A stretch of 15,421 nt of DNA from an uncultured Amaricoccus sp. (GTDB lineage: Bacteria > Pseudomonadota > Alphaproteobacteria > Rhodobacterales > Rhodobacteraceae), in contig NZ_CALLYO010000115.1 in NCBI RefSeq assembly GCF_937858865.1, forward strand, positions 1 through 15,421, read 5' to 3'. Every line of letters starts with the position of its first letter. Position 1 is the first letter of the stretch. The translations under genes and the position numbers were made by a program. Shown piece by piece: positions 3,095 to 13,850 of the stretch. The notes beneath the pieces were generated by a model. The model did not search any database and was not told the origin of the DNA. It was given only the letters and a program-made list of their open reading frames with translations.

Positions 3095-6000
3095 ATGAAC
3101 ATTGACCTCACGCGTCGGGCGTTCCTAGGGGGGGCCGGCGCGGGTGTGGCAGCGACGACGCTCGGAGCGTTCGGCTTCGACGGAGTCGAGGCGGCGCACG
3201 CCGCCGCCGTGAAGGCCTTCCGCCTGGCCAAGACCGTCGAGGCGCGCAGCAGCTGCCCCTACTGTGCGGTCTGCTGCGGGATGATGATCTACTCGGCCGA
3301 GAGCAAGAGCGAGCCGGGCAAGATGGAGGTCGTCCACATCGAGGGCGACGCCGACAATCCGGTCAACCGCGGCACGCTCTGCCCGAAGGGCGCGGCGGCG
3401 ATCGACTACATCCGCTCGCCGAAGCGGGTGAAGGCGCCGATGTACCGCAAGCCCGGCGCGAGCGAGTTCGAGGAAGTCAGCTGGGACTTCGCGATGGAGC
3501 GCATCGCGCGGCTGATGAAGGACGACCGCGACGCCAACTTCGTCGAGACCAACAACGACGGCGTCACCGTCAACCGCTGGTCGTCGATGGGCTTCCTCTC
3601 GGGGAGCTCGGTCACCAACGAGACGGGCTGGCTGACCTTCAAGGTCGCCCGCGGTCTCGGGATGCTGCAGATCGAGAACCAGGCGAGGATTTGACACGGA
3701 CCGACGGTGTCCAGTTTGGGCCCATCATTCGGTCGCGGTGCAATGACGAACAGCTGGACGGACATCGGTAACACCGATCTCGTCTGGATCATGGGCGGGA
3801 ATGCGGCGGAAGCGCATCCCTGCGGCTTCAAGTGGGTCACCGAGGCGAAGCACAACAACGGTGCCAAGCTCATGGTGGTCGACCCGCGCTTCAACCGGTC
3901 GGCCGCGGTCGCGGACCATTATGCGCCGATCCGGGCGGGCAGCGACATCGCCTTCCTCTCGGGCGTGGTCAACTACCTGCTCAGCAACGACAAGATCCAC
4001 CACGAGTACGTGCGCAACTACACCAACGCGGCGTTCATCGTGCGCGACGACTTCGAGTTCGACGCCGAGGAGGGGCTCTTCTCCGGCTACGACGAGTCGA
4101 AGCGGAGCTACGACCGCGGCTCGTGGGAATACGTGATCGGACCGGACGGCTTCGCCGAGCGGGACATGACGCTGCAGCATCCGCGCTGCGTCTTCCAGCT
4201 GATGAAGAAGCATTTCGAGCCCTATACGCCGGAGATGGTGGAGCGGGTCAGCGGCACGCCGAAGGACAAGTTCCTGAAGGTCGCCGAATGGGTCGCCGAG
4301 ACCGCCAACGGCGAGAAGGCGATGACGATCATGTACGCCCTCGGCTGGACGCAGCATTCGAGCGGGGCGCAGAACATCCGCACCGCGGCGATGATCCAGC
4401 TGCTCTGCGGCAACATCGGCGTCCCGGGCGGCGGGGTGAACGCGCTGCGCGGCCACTCCAACGTGCAGGGCATCACCGACGTGGGCACGCTCACGGCGTC
4501 GATCCCGGGCTATCTGGCGCTGCCGCGCGACAGCGAGCCGACGCTCGCCTCGCATCTCGCCAGCCGGACCTTCACGCCGCTCCTGCCGAACCAGACCAGC
4601 TACTGGCAGAACTACCCGCGCTTCTACGTCAGCTTCCTGAAGAGCTACTTCGGGGCGAAGGCGACGCCGGAGAACGAGTTCGGCTACCAGTGGCTGCCCA
4701 AGCTCGACCAGGCGTATGACGCGCTGAAGATGTTCGACGTCATGCACCAGGGCAAGACGACGGGCCTGCTCTGCCAGGGCTTCAACCCGCTGATGTCGAT
4801 CGCCTACTCGGGCAAGAGCGTCGCGGCGCTGTCCAAGCTGAAGTTCCTGGTCAGCATGGACCCGATCGAGACCGACACGGTGCGCTTCTGGGAGAACCAC
4901 GGCGAGTACAACGACGTCGACACGGCGTCGATCCAGACCGAGGTCTTCATGCTGCCGGTGACGTCCTTCGCCGAGGAGCACGGGAGCCTCACCAACTCCA
5001 GCCGCTGCATCCAGTGGAAGTGGCAGGCGGCCGATCCGGTGGGCCAGTCGCGCACCGACATCGAGATCCTGAGCGACCTCTTCAGCCGCATCCGCGCGCT
5101 CTACGAGCAGGAGGGGGGCAGCGGGGTCGAGCCGCTGATGGCGATCGACTGGAGCTATGCCGATCCGGCGCATCCGGATCCGGACGAGCTGCTGCGGGAG
5201 CTCAACGGCAAGGCGCTCGCCGACGTGAAGGACGCCGAGGGCAACGTCGTCCGCCGCGCCGGCGAGATGCTCGCCTCGTTCGGCGAGATGCGCGACGACG
5301 GCTCGACCGACGGCTCGATGTGGATCTACACCGGCGTCTACGGGCCGAAGGGCAACTTCGCCATGCGCCGCGAGAACACCGATCCGTCGGGGCTCGGGGT
5401 CTATGGCGAGTGGGGCTTCTCCTGGCCGGCCAACCGCCGCATCCAGTACAACCGCGCTTCGGCCGATCCGCAGGGCAAGCCCTGGAGCGAGCGGAAGAAG
5501 TACATGTACTGGGACGGCACCCGCTGGTCGGGCCCGGACATCCCGGACTATGTGCCGACCATCCCGCCGGAGCGGGCGACCGGCCCCTTCATCATGAACG
5601 CGGAGGGGGTCTCGCGCCTCTGGGTCCGCGGCCTGATGACGGACGGTCCGTTCCCGGTCCACTACGAGCCCTTCGAGTCGCCGGTGACCAACCCGATCTT
5701 CCCCAAGGTCAGGGGCAACCCGGTGTCGCGGGTGTTCAACAACGACATGGAGATCTTCGGCACCGCCGAGGAGTTCCCGATCGTCGCGACCACCTACCGG
5801 CTCACCGAGCATTTCCACTACTGGACGAAGAGCGTGCACATCAACGCGGTGCTGCAGCCCGAGTTCTTCGTGGAGATGTCCGAGCAGCTGGCGAAGGAGA
5901 AGGGCATCCAGCTCGGCCAGATGGTCCGGGTCTGGTCGAACCGCGGCGAGGTGAAGGGGAGGGCGATGGTGACCAAGCGGATGATCCCGCTCACCATCGA

Positions 6001-7925: not shown

Positions 7926-8843
7926 ATGAGCAAGCCAGTTCTGCCGGAAGCCGATCCGTCCGCCATCGGCGTCATCCCGAAGCCGCCCTTCGCCCGGCTG
8001 CCCGACCCGGACGCGATCTTCCGCCGCCGGGCGGCGCGCTACCGCAAGCTGGCGGACGGCCACGAGCTGGCGCCCTTCCTCCGCTTTCTCGCCGGGCTCG
8101 CCGAGGCGCAGCATGCGGCCGGCGAGGGGCTCGATCCGCCGGCGATGCCGGCGCCCGAGGCGCTCGAGCGCGCCCATCGCCACGCCATGCCGCCGCTCGA
8201 CCGGGCGGGCTTCGTGCCCGGTCCCGAGACCATGGTGCTGATCGACCGGCTGCTCGCGGCGCTCGACGGGCTCGAGATGCCACCGAACGCCCGCGCCGCC
8301 GTCGAGCGGGTGAAGGGCGCCGGCGAGGCCGAGCGGGGCGAGATGATCGCCAACGTGCTCGGGGACGCCGTTCCGTTCGAGGCGGTGGCCGAGCACGCGC
8401 TGGTCGCGGCGGCGATGCAGGTGCATTTCGCCCGGGCCGCCGCCGCGCTCGATGCCGGGCGGCTGCAGGCGGTGGGCGACGGCGTCTGCCCGGCCTGCGG
8501 CGGGCCGCCGTCGGCGAGCCTGGTCGTCGGCTGGACGCGCAACCCAGGGACGCGCTTCTGCTCCTGCTCGACCTGCGGCACGCTCTGGAACTACGTGCGC
8601 GCCAAGTGCACGCTCTGCGGCTCGACCGCGAAGGTCTCCTTCCGCGAGATCGACGGGGCCGGGGGCCTCGTCAAGGCCGAGGTCTGCGAGACCTGCCACG
8701 GCTACGTGAAGGTGCTCTACCAGGAGCGGGAGCCGGAGCTCGACCCGATCGCCGACGACGTGGCGACGCTCGGGCTCGATCTCCTGGTCAAGGAGCTCGG
8801 CTTCCGCCGCGGCGCGGTCAACCCCTTCCTCATCGGCTACTGA
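7926..8843 (+). CDS. fdhE: Formate dehydrogenase accessory protein FdhE
   Basis: FdhE is a cytoplasmic protein needed for active respiratory formate dehydrogenases; it interacts with the catalytic subunit before Tat export. The 305 residues fit the family (E. coli FdhE 309). The C-terminal half carries four CxxC metal-binding pairs: Cys188/191 (CPACGG), Cys214/217 (CSTCGTLW), Cys228/231 (CTLCGS) and Cys254/257 (CETCHGY), plus Cys212. The N-terminal half is helical and lacks a signal peptide. The ATG at 7926 follows TGAGGAT (7916-7922). It begins 91 nt after fdnI and its stop overlaps the selA start in a TGATG, so it opens the second, tightly coupled part of the operon. Confidence 0.95.
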
Positions 8844-10201
8844 TGGGGGCGGACGGCTCCGCGCTGCGCCGGCTCCCGGCCGTCGACCGCGTGTTGCGCA
8901 CGCCGGAGGCGGAGGCCGCCGTCGCGCGCCACGGACGCAGCCAGACGGTCAAGGCTGTGCGCCTGGCGCTGGCGGAGGCGCGGGCGACCGGGGGCGAGGG
9001 CGCGACGCCGGCGGCGATCGCCGCGGCGGCGGGGCTCAGGCTCGAGGCGGCGCGGCGGCCGAAGGTGCGGCCGGTCTTCAACCTGACCGGCACCATCCTG
9101 CACACCAACCTCGGCCGCGCGCTGCTCGCCGAGGAGGCGGTCGAGGCCGCCGTCACTGCCATGCGGCAGGCGCTCGCGCTCGAATACGATCTCGGCGGCG
9201 GGCGGCGCGGCGAGCGGGACGGGGTGCTGCGCGAGCTGCTCTGCGAGCTGACCGGCGCCGAGGACGCCACCGTCGTCAACAACAATGCCGCCGCGGTGCT
9301 CCTCGCGCTCAACACGCTGGCCGAGGGGCGGGAGGCGATCGTGTCGCGGGGCGAGCTGATCGAGATCGGCGGCGCCTTCCGCATGCCGGAGATCATGGCC
9401 CGCGCCGGCAGCCGGCTGGTCGAGGTCGGCACCACCAACCGCACGCACCAGAAGGACTATCGCGGCGCGATCGGGCCGGAGACCGGGGTGATCCTCAAGG
9501 TCCACACATCGAACTACCGCATAGAGGGCTTCGTCGCCGAGGTGCCGGCGCGGGTGCTCGCCGGGATCGCCGGCGCGGCGGGGGTGCCGCTCGTCAACGA
9601 CCTCGGCTCGGGCAGCCTGGTCGATCTCTCGGGCTTCGGGCTCGCCCGCGAGCCGACCGTGGCCGAGGCGGTGGCCGAGGGGGCCGATCTCGTCACCTTC
9701 TCGGGCGACAAGCTGCTCGGCGGGCCGCAGGCCGGCTTCATCGTCGGCCGGGCGGCGCTGATCGCGCGGATCAACCGCAACCCGATGAAGCGGGCGATGC
9801 GGCTCGACAAGATCCGCCTCGCCGCGCTCGAGGCGACGCTGCGCCTCTACCTCGATCCCGACCGCCTGGTGGCGCGGCTGCCGACGCTGCGCCTCATCGC
9901 CCGGCCGAAGGAGGAGATCGCCACCCTGGCGCGGGAACTCGCGCCGGCGGTGGCGGCGGCCCTCGGGGTCGAGGCGGCGGTCGTCGACTGCGCGAGCCAG
10001 GTCGGCTCGGGGGCGCTGCCGCTCGAGGAGATCGCGAGCGCGGGGCTGGCGCTCCGCGGCGCTGCGCCGGATGCGCTCGCCGCGCGTCTCCGGGCGCTGC
10101 CGGTGCCGGTGATCGGGCGCATCGCCGACGGGGCGCTGCTGCTCGACCTCCGCTGTCTCGAGGACCCGCGGGGGTTCCTCGCGAACCTCGCCGCGCCATG
10201 A
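8843..10201 (+). CDS. selA: L-seryl-tRNA(Sec) selenium transferase
   Basis: SelA is a PLP enzyme that converts Ser-tRNA-Sec to Sec-tRNA-Sec using selenophosphate from SelD. The 452 residues compare with 463 in E. coli. The PLP lysine is Lys290 in [13 protein letters not shown] (E. coli Lys295). Other family blocks are [52 protein letters not shown] and VNDLGSGSL. The start is the ATG in the TGATG shared with the fdhE stop. No separate ribosome site is visible, which suggests coupling to fdhE translation. The same frame stays open upstream across fdhE as far as 7922, but that extension has no family similarity and lies inside fdhE. Its end overlaps the Sel1-repeat gene by ATGA. Confidence 0.96.
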
Positions 10202-10983
10202 GCTGGATCAGCCGGCTGCGCGGGGAAAGGCCGCCCGAGGACCCGATGGCAGCCGCCGACGCGGCGGCAGCCAGGGGCGACTACGCGGCGGCGCTCGCCA
10301 TCTGGGGGCCGCTGGCGCATGCCGGGAACGCCCGGGCGCAGAACAACGTCGGCGCCTGCTTCGCCGGCGGGCTCGGGGTCGGGCGCGACCCGGCGCTGGC
10401 GGTGAAGTGGCTGACGCTCGCCGCCGAGGCCGGGGACGCGGCCGGGCGGCGCAATCTCGCGCACGCCTACTTCCGGGGCGATGGCGTGCCGGAGGATCCG
10501 TGGCGCGCCGCGGCGCTCTACCGCCAGGCGGCCGAGGCGGGCGACGCCGAGGCCGAGGACATGCTGAGCTGGATGCTGCTCGAGGGGGAGATCGTGCCGC
10601 CCGACCCGGGCGAGGCGCGCCGCCTGGCCGAGGCGGCCGCCGCCCAGGGCAACGCGCCGGCGATGACCCGGCTCGGCATGATCCATCACAATGCGCTCGG
10701 GGTGCCGCGCGATCCGGCCGCTGCCGCCCGCTGGTGGGCGAAGGCCGCGGCGCTCGGCGAGGCGGACGCCCAGGCGATGCTGGGGGCGGCGCTGCACATG
10801 GGCCAGGGCGTGCCGCGCGACCGCTATGCCGGCTTCGTCTGGCTGCTGCGCGCCCACGCCGGCGGCAGCGAGCTCGCCTATCCCTTCCTGCGCGCCGCCG
10901 AGGACGCGCTCGCCCCGGAGGAGGCCGGCCGCGCCCGCCGCGAGGCCGACGCGCCGCTCCCGCTGCCGGAGCCCGCGCGATGA
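10198..10983 (+). CDS. Sel1-like repeat (SLR/TPR) protein between selA and selB
   Basis: This 261-residue protein has no signal peptide and is probably cytoplasmic. From about residue 30 to 210 it contains five regular 36-residue Sel1-like repeats, each ending in a G-V-x-x-D-P type turn: LGVGRDP, DGVPEDP, EIVPPDP, LGVPRDP, QGVPRDR. A sixth repeat is degenerate. Such repeats form a curved helical scaffold for protein binding; the name Sel1 is unrelated to selenium. It overlaps selA by ATGA and its TGA overlaps the selB start in ATGATGA-like fashion (selB ATG at 10980), so it should be made together with SelA and SelB. An adaptor for SelA, SelB or FDH maturation is a reasonable inference, but the sequence names no partner. 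Confidence 0.88.
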
Positions 10984-13013
10984 TCGTGGGGACCGCCGGC
11001 CATATCGACCACGGCAAGACGAGCCTGGTGCGGGCGCTGACCGGCACCGATACCGACCGGCTCAAGGAGGAGAAGGCGCGCGGCATCACGCTCGATCTCG
11101 GCTTCGCCTACATGCCGGCGACGGACGGGGCGGTGATCGGCTTCGTCGACGTGCCGGGCCACGAGCGGCTCATCCACAACATGCTCGCCGGCGCGAGCGG
11201 CATCGACTTCGCGCTCGTCGTCGTCGCCGCCGACGACGGGGTGATGCCGCAGACCCGCGAGCATCTGGCGATCCTCGACCTGCTCGGCCTCGATCGCGGC
11301 CTGGTCGCGCTGACCAAGATCGACGCCGCCGACCCGGACCGCATCGCGGCGGCGCGGAACGGCATCGCCAATGCGCTTCTCGGCACCGGCCTCGAGGGGG
11401 CGGAGATCGTTCCCGTCTCCTCGGTGACCGGGGAGGGCGTCGAGACGCTGCGCGCGCGGCTGCTCCGCGCCGACCGGGGCGTGCTCGCCAAGCCGGCCGA
11501 GGCGCCCTTCCGGCTCGCCGTCGATCGCGCCTTCACGCTGCCGGGCTCGGGCACCATCGTCACCGGGACCGTCCTGTCGGGCCATGTGGCGGCGGGCGAC
11601 CGGCTGCGCGCCAGCCCCTCCGGGCTCGAGGTGCGGGTGCGCGGCCTGCATGCGCAGAACCGCAGGGCCGAGCGCGGCGGCCCGGGCGACCGCTGCGCGC
11701 TCAACCTCGTCGGCGAGGGCGTTGGCAAGGACACGCTCCGCCGCGGCGACGTGATCCTCGCGCCCGGCCTGCACGCGCCGACCGACCGGGTCGACGTGCG
11801 CCTGCGCCTGCTGGCGTCGGAGGCGCGTCCGGTCGGCCAGTGGCTGCCCGTCCACCTCCACCACGGTTCGGCCGAGGTGACGGCGCGCGTCGTCCTCCTC
11901 GGCGACCCGATCGCGCCCGGCACGGAGGGGTTCGCCCAGCTCGTCCTCGACCGGCCGATCGCCGCGCTGGCCGGCGACCGCTTCGTCATTCGCGACACCA
12001 GCGCCCAGCGGACCCTCGGCGGCGGGCGGCTGCTCGATCTCCGCGCCCCCGCCCGCCGGCGCCGTGGCCCGGAGCGGCTGGCGCAGCTCGAGGCGCTGGC
12101 GCTGCCCGACCCGGCGGCCGCCCTCGCGACGCTGCTCTCCCGCCCGCCCTGGCAGGTCGACGCCGAGGCCTTCGCCCGCGACCACGGCCTCGGGCCCGAG
12201 GCGCTCGCCGGGCTCGTCCGCGTCGGGGGCGTGGCGCTCTCGGAGGAGACGGCCGGGCGGCTGGTGCGCGACCTCCTCGCCGCGCTGGCCGACTTCCACG
12301 CCGGGAACCCCGACCTCGCCGGGATCGGCATGGAGCGGCTGCGCGGCGGCCTCGACCCGCGCCTGCCGGCGCCGGCCTTCCGCACGCTGCTGCAGGGGCT
12401 GGCCCGCGAGGGAAGGATCGCGCTCGACGGCGCCTGGGTGCGCCTCGCCGGGCACGAGGCGCGGCTCGCGCCGGTCGACGAGGAGCTCTGGGACCAGGTC
12501 GCGCCGCTGCTCGGCGGCGAGGCGCGCTTCCGCCCGCCGCGGGTGCGCGACATCGCCGGCCTCCTCGACGAGCCGGAGGAGGAGATCCGCCGGCTGCTGA
12601 AGCTGCTCGCCCGCATGGGCCGGCTGCACGAGATCGCCCACGACCATTTCTTCCTGCGCGACGTGGTGGGCGAGATGGCCGGGATCGCCGCCGGGCTCGA
12701 TGCCGCGCACGGCCTCTTCAGCGCGGCTGAGTTCCGCGACCGGCTGGACAACGGCCGCAAGGTCGCCATCCTGATCCTCGAGTTCTTCGACCGCCACGGC
12801 GTGACGCTGCGCCGGGGCGACCTCCGCCGCGTCAATCCGCGGCGGCTCGACCTCTTTCCGCGCGAGGCCGGCGGCGACGCCGCGCCCGCGCAGCCTGGAG
12901 GAGAATCGTCCCCGGTGGGGCGGCCGGACTTCAAATCCGGTTGGGGCCGTGAGACGGTCCCGGGTGGGTTCGACTCCCACTCTCTTCCGCCAGTTCGCCG
13001 GGGGAGCGCATGA
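10980..13013 (+). CDS. selB: Selenocysteine-specific translation elongation factor, frame running through selC
   Basis: SelB binds GTP, Sec-tRNA-Sec and the SECIS hairpin and delivers Sec to UGA. The open frame gives 677 residues against 614 in E. coli. GTPase motifs are GHIDHGKT (7-14), RGIT (34-37), DVPGH (57-61) and TKID (112-115). EF-Tu-like domains 2 and 3 follow, then winged-helix repeats that bind SECIS RNA, ending in [20 protein letters not shown] and DLFPRE (about residue 629), where E. coli SelB ends. There is no stop there. Ten residues later the frame enters the tRNA-Sec gene and reads it as codons 640-671, then six more residues to a TGA that overlaps the next ATG. Whether the 48-residue tail is made is unknown. 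The start overlaps the Sel1-repeat stop. Confidence 0.95.
12897..12992 (+). tRNA. selC: tRNA-Sec (anticodon UCA)
   Basis: This 96-nt tRNA folds as bacterial tRNA-Sec. It has an 8-bp acceptor stem (GGAGGAGA with TCTCTTCC, one G-U pair), a 6-bp D stem (CGTCCC/GGGGCG) with a CGGT loop, and a 5-bp anticodon stem (CCGGA/TCCGG) with loop CTTCAAA and anticodon TCA at 12931-12933. The long variable arm has an 8-bp stem (GGGGCCGT/ACGGTCCC) with a GAG loop. The T arm is GTGGG-TTCGACT-CCCAC, the discriminator is G and CCA is encoded. Much of it matches E. coli selC base for base. It lies entirely inside the selB reading frame, and no separate promoter or T-run terminator is visible beside it, so it is probably cut from the operon transcript. 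Confidence 0.97.
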
Positions 13014-13468
13014 CCGAGACCGCAATCGCGAGCTACATCGAGACGCTGGCCACCACCGCGCGGGCGGCGAGCACCGCCGAGCAGGACTTCCAGAAGGAAG
13101 CCGCCCGGCGCGCCGCCCAGCTGCGCGAGGCGCGCGCCTTCGCCTGGCGGCGGCTGAATCTCGTGCGCGCCACGGCATCGGCGGTGCGCGGCGCCGAGGG
13201 GCCGGAGGCGGTGGCGGAGGCCGGGCGCGAGACGCTCTTCCGCGAGAGCGGGCTCGGCCGCGCCGCCGAGGCCAACCGGGAGGTGGCCGAGCGCTTCGTC
13301 GCGGTGGCCGAGGCGGTGGCCGCCGCCGGCGGCGACGACCCCGACCCCGCGGCCGATCCCGCGGCGGCGCTCGCCGCCTTCGAGGCCTGGTATGCGGCGG
13401 CGCGCGGGGGGCCCTTCCTGGCGCTGATGGAGCGCGAAGTGGTGGAGCTGCCGCTTGTCGAGGTCTGA
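13010..13468 (+). CDS. Small helical protein of unknown function, first gene after selC
   Basis: I do not recognise this 152-residue protein. It has no cysteine, no signal peptide and no membrane segment, and is rich in Ala, Glu and Arg. Residues about 1-60 look like a long amphipathic helix or coiled coil ([20 protein letters not shown]), followed by further helices. An acidic Pro/Asp linker ([20 protein letters not shown]) near residue 110 precedes a short tail ending in ELPLVEV. The ATG overlaps the selB TGA (ATGA) and has GGGGGAG (13000-13006) just upstream, so it can be translated even from an mRNA cut at the 3' end of selC 17 nt away. Codon bias matches its neighbours. It leads a five-gene group with lipoyl and DsrE-like proteins. 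Confidence 0.82.
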
Positions 13469-13850
13469 CCCCGGGGAGGCCGTGACCTTCGACGCCTGGA
13501 TCGCCGCGGAATTCGGCGGGCGGGGGCCGTTCACGCTGCTGGTCGTCGTGGTGGCGATCGGGGGGCTCAGCATCACGCCGATCCGCTCGAGCTGGTTCCA
13601 CGTCATCGGCACCGACCTCGAGTGGGCCGACGTCGCGCGCCTGCTCGACGGCGGCGGGCCGGAGTGGGACGCGGCCGTCTTCGCGCCGCGCGCGGACGCG
13701 GCGGGCGGGCCGCTCGGCGAGGCGGCGGCGCGGATCGCGGTCAAGGACCTGGGGGAGGAGATCCTGGCCGACCGGACGGTGCTGAATCGCGAGCATTTCT
13801 TCGACCGCAAGGGGCGGCGGATGAAGGTGGAGGAGGTGCCGGCCCAGTGA
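13455..13850 (+). CDS. Protein of unknown function, second gene of the post-selC cassette
   Basis: I do not recognise this protein. Its start is uncertain. A TTG at 13455 has GGTGGAG 7 nt upstream and gives 131 residues. A GTG at 13482 has GGGGAGG only 2 nt upstream and gives 122 residues beginning [12 protein letters not shown]. Residues 24-45 (counting from TTG) include a hydrophobic run, [15 protein letters not shown], directly followed by [17 protein letters not shown]; this could be a pair of beta strands or one short membrane segment. The C-terminal part is charged ([19 protein letters not shown]) and has no cysteine. It ends in GTGA, overlapping the lipoate-ligase-like gene, so it is firmly part of the same operon. 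Confidence 0.78.

Follow-up and report, generated by a model that had tools for sequence, protein, structure and literature searches.

tRNA-Sec genes (selC) nested in the selB coding sequence were reported in 2021 from Rhizobiales, Rhodobacterales, Rhodospirillales and Caulobacterales (PMC8124441). The nested genes are mostly 96 or 93 nt long, lie in phase with selB and begin with the codon GGA, and nested tRNAs of 95 nt were reported too; the selB stop codon overlaps the next start codon in many members, not in all (PMC8124441). The same study described lineages that have lost the overlap, an extension of SelB that was kept after loss of the tRNA in S. meliloti and some Roseomonas, partial selB-selC overlaps in Gammaproteobacteria and Nitrospirae, and a separate promoter that was proposed for the reversed selC of Shewanella (PMC8124441). 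According to its proposal, processing of the tRNA turns the selB mRNA into a nonstop message, which makes SelB and tRNA-Sec alternative products, and excision of the tRNA was hypothesized to lower SelB (PMC8124441). Two reviews, of 2022 (PMC9312934) and 2026 (PMC13188914), restate the arrangement and the idea in similar terms, and PMC12685816 is one more paper bearing the title. No experimental test of the cut-or-translate model was found in the literature searched, most subscription papers being outside its reach. The locus described here is a further member of the nested kind published in 2021, and the either/or model put forward for it in the initial annotation is the published hypothesis of Mukai 2021, not a new one.

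The nested tRNA-Sec gene and its cluster

The window, meaning the whole stretch of 15,421 nucleotides that was analysed, contains the following features.

3689..3747, plus strand: SECIS_3 element, covering the TGA (3692-3694) that interrupts a molybdopterin oxidoreductase ORF in frame (Rfam, 74.7 bits)
7926..8843, plus strand: fdhE, formate dehydrogenase accessory protein (Pfam)
10198..10983, plus strand: Sel1-repeat protein, its stop overlapping the selB start (Pfam)
10980..13013, plus strand: selB ORF with C-terminal extension, 677 codons (TIGR00475; Pfam domains)
12858..12896, plus strand: linker, codons 627-639, 3' of the conserved RLDLF end of SelB; in nested relatives its length and sequence vary and its phase is constant
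12897..12992, plus strand: selC, a 96-nt tRNA-Sec gene that encodes its CCA and is read in phase as selB codons 640-671 (ARAGORN, Rfam)
12993..13013, plus strand: six-codon tail (codons 672-677) and the selB TGA stop (ORF reading)
13010..13468, plus strand: next ORF, 152 aa, its start overlapping the selB stop as ATGA (ORF list)

The 677 codons of selB run from the ATG at 10980 to the TGA at 13011-13013. selC starts at selB codon 640, since (12897-10980)/3 = 639, and its length equals 32 codons; six further codons (V R R G S A) lead to the TGA, which sits in the ATGA at 13010-13013 shared with the ATG of the next ORF. The initial annotation had described exactly this layout, and both its coordinates and its frame hold, so that the nesting of tRNA-Sec in selB is confirmed as a true and correctly described feature. 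The tRNA-Sec (96 nt, phase 0, first codon GGA; GGAGGAGA) was identified by ARAGORN with the anticodon TCA at 12896-12992, with one extra 5' base, and by the Rfam tRNA-Sec model (RF01852) at 12897-12988, where it scores 80.8 bits against a gathering score of 47 with the full model covered. It has eight acceptor pairs, a TCA anticodon (UCA in the RNA) and a score above the gathering cut-off, and its CCA is encoded in the DNA at 12990-12992. Among the six tRNA-Sec matches listed for the window's genome, a MAG that is 92.6% complete, it is the only one over the family cut-off.

The window SelB matches TIGR00475 with 407 bits over residues 1-617 and has the Pfam GTPase, beta-barrel and winged-helix domains; the SelB family models (TIGR00475, PF09107) stop at residue 617. 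Similarity to E. coli SelB had been said to end near residue 629. The end found here lies slightly before that point: the alignment to the SelB of PDB entry 5lzb, which we take to be the E. coli protein, ends at residue 616.

Elsewhere in the cluster, Molybdop_Fe4S4 matches the part of the molybdopterin oxidoreductase ORF that lies 5' of its TGA, and this TGA-interrupted ORF is the likely local user of tRNA-Sec. The order fdhE-selA-tetratricopeptide gene directly 5' of selB is annotated in three related loci (L139, L140 and L149), and the SelA-like ORF of the window is named solely from that gene order. No Pfam or NCBIfam match at E 0.001 was found for the ORF at 13010-13468.

Phase of the nested tRNA among relatives

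Relatives were collected by genome searches with SelB without its extension as the query. A SelB match was present in 54 of 385 genomes of the class sample, 33 of 390 of the order sample and 5 of 11 of the genus sample, and in 20 of 43 genomes from the order of G277 and 3 of 5 from the order of G246; these samples overlap, the window's genome and some others recurring. Further loci were taken from genome contigs (28) and from plasmids (14 of the 129 records matched). A usable SelB match was present in 135 of the 146 loci (L007-L152), the 11 loci L103-L113 having been dropped as distant GTPases. The tRNA-Sec is nested in selB in 22 of these 135 loci, follows the selB stop in 53, contains the stop in 2 and is antisense in 2, and the end of SelB is missing in 3; no tRNA-Sec was found downstream in the remaining 53, where the sequence behind selB ranges from none (L138) or about 450 bases (L020, L129) to about 4000, and some of which may be cut early. 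A sense tRNA-Sec thus stands behind selB in 77 loci, 22 of them nested.

A quick tree with long branches was made from 119 of 132 SelB rows (13 with less than 330 bits or a start after query residue 30 were dropped). All 22 nested SelBs fall within one clade of 59 rows (SH-aLRT 97), whose remaining rows are 15 SelBs with a stop no more than 100 nt upstream of the tRNA and 22 others. At least 11 changes of the nested state are needed on this tree, 7 of these being forced by starred branches. Within the window's genus, two of the five SelB-bearing genomes are nested (L007, L116), the selB of L062 stops 17 nt before the tRNA, and no tRNA-Sec was found behind selB in L114 and L115. The initial annotation had held that relatives with a stop codon before selC would make the overlap incidental. 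Such relatives exist (the 15 of the 59 clade SelBs, and L062 in the genus), and the nested arrangement is therefore dispensable; the description of the overlap as incidental fits poorly, because the phase in nested loci appears not to be random, as set out below.

Several loci are of interest in their own right. The selB stop lies directly before the tRNA-Sec, with a gap of 0 in L064, L091 and L092, 1 in L008 and L063, and 2 in L070; in these six loci RNase P would leave a message ending at or just behind the stop. Two different SelB genes are present in some genomes: that of L116 (G771) holds a second, non-nested SelB (L117), L064 is accompanied by G653:C16, and G786, G789 and G801 are further cases. 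The selB of L144 (Sinorhizobium chiapasense) runs in frame into a degraded tRNA-Sec-like stretch at its end, and ARAGORN recognizes a tRNA-Sec 2 kb downstream; this resembles the pSymA case of Mukai 2021 (PMC8124441). Among the fetched plasmid records with a gene table, the selB CDS is absent from the table in both that hold a nested pair (L139 and L142; NZ_CP091852.1, NZ_CP104969.1) and present in the three with a non-nested selB (L140, L149 and L152); the tables are incomplete and omit pseudogenes. An annotation pipeline may treat a tRNA-overlapping selB as faulty, and annotators should be warned that such genes may be dropped or cut.

An open frame through the tRNA was rejected as evidence, tRNA-Sec being mostly open in all three phases. 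The 18 non-nested tRNA-Sec genes of the clade are open in the selB phase in 16 cases and in the other two phases in 18 and 14, and the nested tRNAs are open also in phase 1 (22/22) and phase 2 (21/22). Openness in nested loci (22/22) is thus little different from that in non-nested loci (16/18; Fisher p = 0.20). All 22 nested loci have a 96-nt tRNA in phase 0, whereas the phases of the 18 non-nested clade loci are spread 5/7/6 (Fisher p = 7e-7, relatedness ignored). Of the two measures, phase is the more telling.

The nested linkers behind the conserved DLF motif have eight lengths, which require at least nine changes on the SelB tree, and no nested locus in another phase was found among the 22. 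Since a phase-0 linker is a multiple of three by construction, the informative point is the absence of the other phases, and in 18 and 9 of the 22 nested loci the tRNA would remain passable in the other two frames. Were the phase free, phase 0 would be expected in about 45% of nested loci, and nine independent changes would give a probability of 7e-4. From these comparisons the phase appears non-random where the nested arrangement exists, and pure accident is unlikely. The nested 95-nt tRNAs of Mukai, which enter in phase and must exit in another, are a counter-case to the phase rule (PMC8124441).

The protein-level survey used SelB lacking its tail as the query, and an earlier protein search with the tail in the query was left out of the phase count because such a query favours phase-0 tails. 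Of 8000 scored candidates, 4901 proteins matched the tail-less query at E <= 1e-150, and the best 120, which are nearest to the window by core sequence and so belong to the nested clade by choice, were analysed. The phase-0 tRNA-encoded peptide is present in 117 of these best 120 of 4901 proteins, one of them (P0121) degraded; the other three (P0010, P0011 and P0021) show none of the patterns of phase 0, 1 or 2. There are 14 different linker lengths in the best 120 proteins, and they require at least 46 changes on the FastTree tree of these proteins, the figure of 46 being approximate.

Differences at the three codon positions were counted in eight close nested pairs, with L146 used twice, one pair each dropped from the linker and the tail for unequal length, and the pair L086/L101 kept in the totals, although its unbiased core (51/47/52) is probably out of register. 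The counts are 23/29/36 for the linker, 22/18/22 for the tail and 103/86/272 for the core. Selection on the linker or tail peptide was rejected, codon-position bias not being clear in the eight close pairs. Linker and tail differences lack the clear bias of the SelB core, and therefore the residues of both seem unconstrained and the peptide free to vary. Selection seems to act on the passage of ribosomes through the tRNA and not on the peptide, in part perhaps because the next ORF is reached that way.

A function of the tRNA-encoded peptide as a C-terminal part of SelB is very improbable. In its favour, the phase-0 peptide hardly varies, an extension is kept without the tRNA in S. meliloti and some Roseomonas (PMC8124441), and extensions past residue 617 with no tRNA-Sec found occur in L150 (37 residues) and L140 (27 residues). 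The constancy, however, follows from conservation of the tRNA, nested and non-nested tRNAs show broadly the same pattern of variability by codon position, and linker and tail look unconstrained.

Plain overlap without consequence, in which the selB stop was lost, the tRNA is open by chance and transcripts are cut after translation, would accord with the mostly open tRNA-Sec genes (16/18 of the non-nested ones in the clade), with the repeated loss of nesting, also within the genus, and with the lack of clear codon-position bias in linker and tail. It is strained by the phase result, as a free phase predicts about 45% phase 0 and the linker-length changes (at least 9 in the loci, at least 46 in the best 120 proteins) yielded no case of another phase, and we regard it as improbable.

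Fates of the selB transcript and the next ORF

Because phase is conserved despite changes in linker length, the comparison suggests that ribosomes go through the tRNA sequence in the selB message. This passage is the part of the either/or model, itself already in Mukai 2021, that gains from the sequence comparison; we infer that the tRNA-Sec is also cut from the selB transcript. On balance we lean towards a reading in which selC is the last part of the selB CDS and is expressed from the selB transcript, with two fates open to each transcript. In the first, the tRNA part would fold and RNase P would cut at 12896/12897, a tRNA-Sec being gained and the selB message losing its stop. In the second, ribosomes would read on, unfold the tRNA and finish SelB with its 38-residue tail; the ribosome would then stop at the ATGA, from where the next ORF could start. 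The cut message would presumably be rescued, and the two fates might balance SelB against its tRNA.

The two-fate reading is favoured by an intact tRNA that is the only match over the cut-off among the six listed in the genome, by the single phase kept in 22 of 22 nested loci while linker length changes, by the absence of a sigma-70-like promoter from 9900-13600, and by the published model (PMC8124441). Against it stand the 11 or more changes of the nested state, with two of five nested in the genus; the six relatives with selC 0-2 nt behind the selB stop, which indicate that co-transcription works without stop loss; and the nested 95-nt tRNAs and lineages without overlap described by Mukai (PMC8124441). 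More tentatively, the nested tRNA may be a working mRNA/tRNA switch, in which selection keeps the one-phase crossing, each transcript gives either the tRNA or a completed SelB together with the next protein, and competition between ribosome and RNase P sets the ratio. Loss of the overlap in relatives, including some of the window's genus, counts against such a switch being needed. A real switch would let one RNA fix the ratio of a tRNA to its carrier factor without any regulator, and with the phase test the published hypothesis can be challenged more easily.

selC might instead have its own promoter inside selB, which would make tRNA supply independent of the selB message. Mukai proposes a separate promoter for the reversed selC of Shewanella (PMC8124441). 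The sigma-70-like scan, which covers that one promoter type and is weak here, found no promoter-like site in 9900-13600, and since the linker varies freely in both sequence and length, there is no conserved site immediately 5' of the tRNA; an internal promoter is decidedly improbable.

A further explanation is translational coupling, in which passage through the tRNA is needed for ribosomes to arrive at the ATGA and start the next ORF, the balance of SelB and tRNA being a by-product. Homologues of the window's next ORF (ORF1) stand behind selB in 8 of the 22 nested loci, window included, in 0 of the 15 loci with a near stop and in 0 of the 22 other clade members (nested 8/22 versus non-nested 0/37, Fisher p = 1.4e-4, relatedness ignored). 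In 7 of the 22 nested loci an ORF of more than 100 codons has its start (ATG, GTG or TTG) in overlap with the selB stop, and a C-terminal Arg is present in 87 of 144 proteins, as CGA-TGA would give. Yet 10 of the 22 nested loci, with no ORF1 or ORF2 homologue and no start of an ORF of at least 100 codons found near the stop, still keep the phase. ORF1 is also found behind 2 of the 60 SelBs outside the clade (L015, L123) and ORF2 behind the clade members L008, L140 and L149, all five non-nested. As the whole account coupling is somewhat unlikely; as part of the reason for the kept frame it is plausible from gene order.

The predicted fold of 12851-12901 has base pairs between the SelB codons CCUCU and GGAGG of the tRNA 5' strand. 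Masking by such pairing was rejected as a group trait: in the folding set of 40 clade loci, mean upstream pairing is 0.12 for the 22 nested loci and 0.11 with shuffled upstream codons, although some single loci, L007, L101 and L142 among them, lie above the mean of their own shuffles. An alpha tmRNA was not found in the window's MAG (G000). This is probably an assembly gap, because all 10 other genomes of the genus set of 11 have a tmRNA match (a partial one in one genome). The SmpB gene is present in the window's genome, and tmRNA rescue of the cut selB message is possible.

Comparison with known systems

Autoregulation of SelB in E. coli relies on SelB itself together with a SECIS-like element of the selB message, not on tRNA excision. 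As cited in PMC8124441, it has in common with the proposal for nested selBC that the amount of SelB is limited. The partly overlapping selB-selC pairs of Dyella/Luteibacter and Nitrospirae resemble the window in that the tRNA-Sec starts inside selB, and differ in that the selB stop lies inside the tRNA (PMC8124441); L048 and L135 are of that type. In the mitochondrial genome of Armadillidium, as summarized in PMC8124441, cox1 contains a tRNA-Lys, likewise a whole tRNA in direct orientation within a CDS, for which alternative expression was hypothesized as for selBC, although the genome is a compact mitochondrial one and the genes are unrelated.

The closest likeness is to the nested selBC of Alphaproteobacteria (Azorhizobium caulinodans and others; PMC8124441), in which a whole 96-nt tRNA-Sec lies in the selB frame in sense orientation. 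The window SelB groups with nested SelBs of Rhizobiales in the 59-row clade (SH-aLRT 97, quick tree), which besides L007 has 21 nested rows, including Mesorhizobium, Phyllobacterium and Sinorhizobium. As in Mukai's members, the extension starts with Gly (GGA), its tRNA part ends at the CCA codon, the stop overlaps the next start, and Sel1-like and formate dehydrogenase genes are in the cluster (PMC8124441). The same cut-or-translate model (section 2.6 and the legend of Fig. 7 in PMC8124441) is proposed for the window. The window differs in coming from a further species, and the phase test and tree counts are new here, no such test being present in the text and figure legends of PMC8124441.
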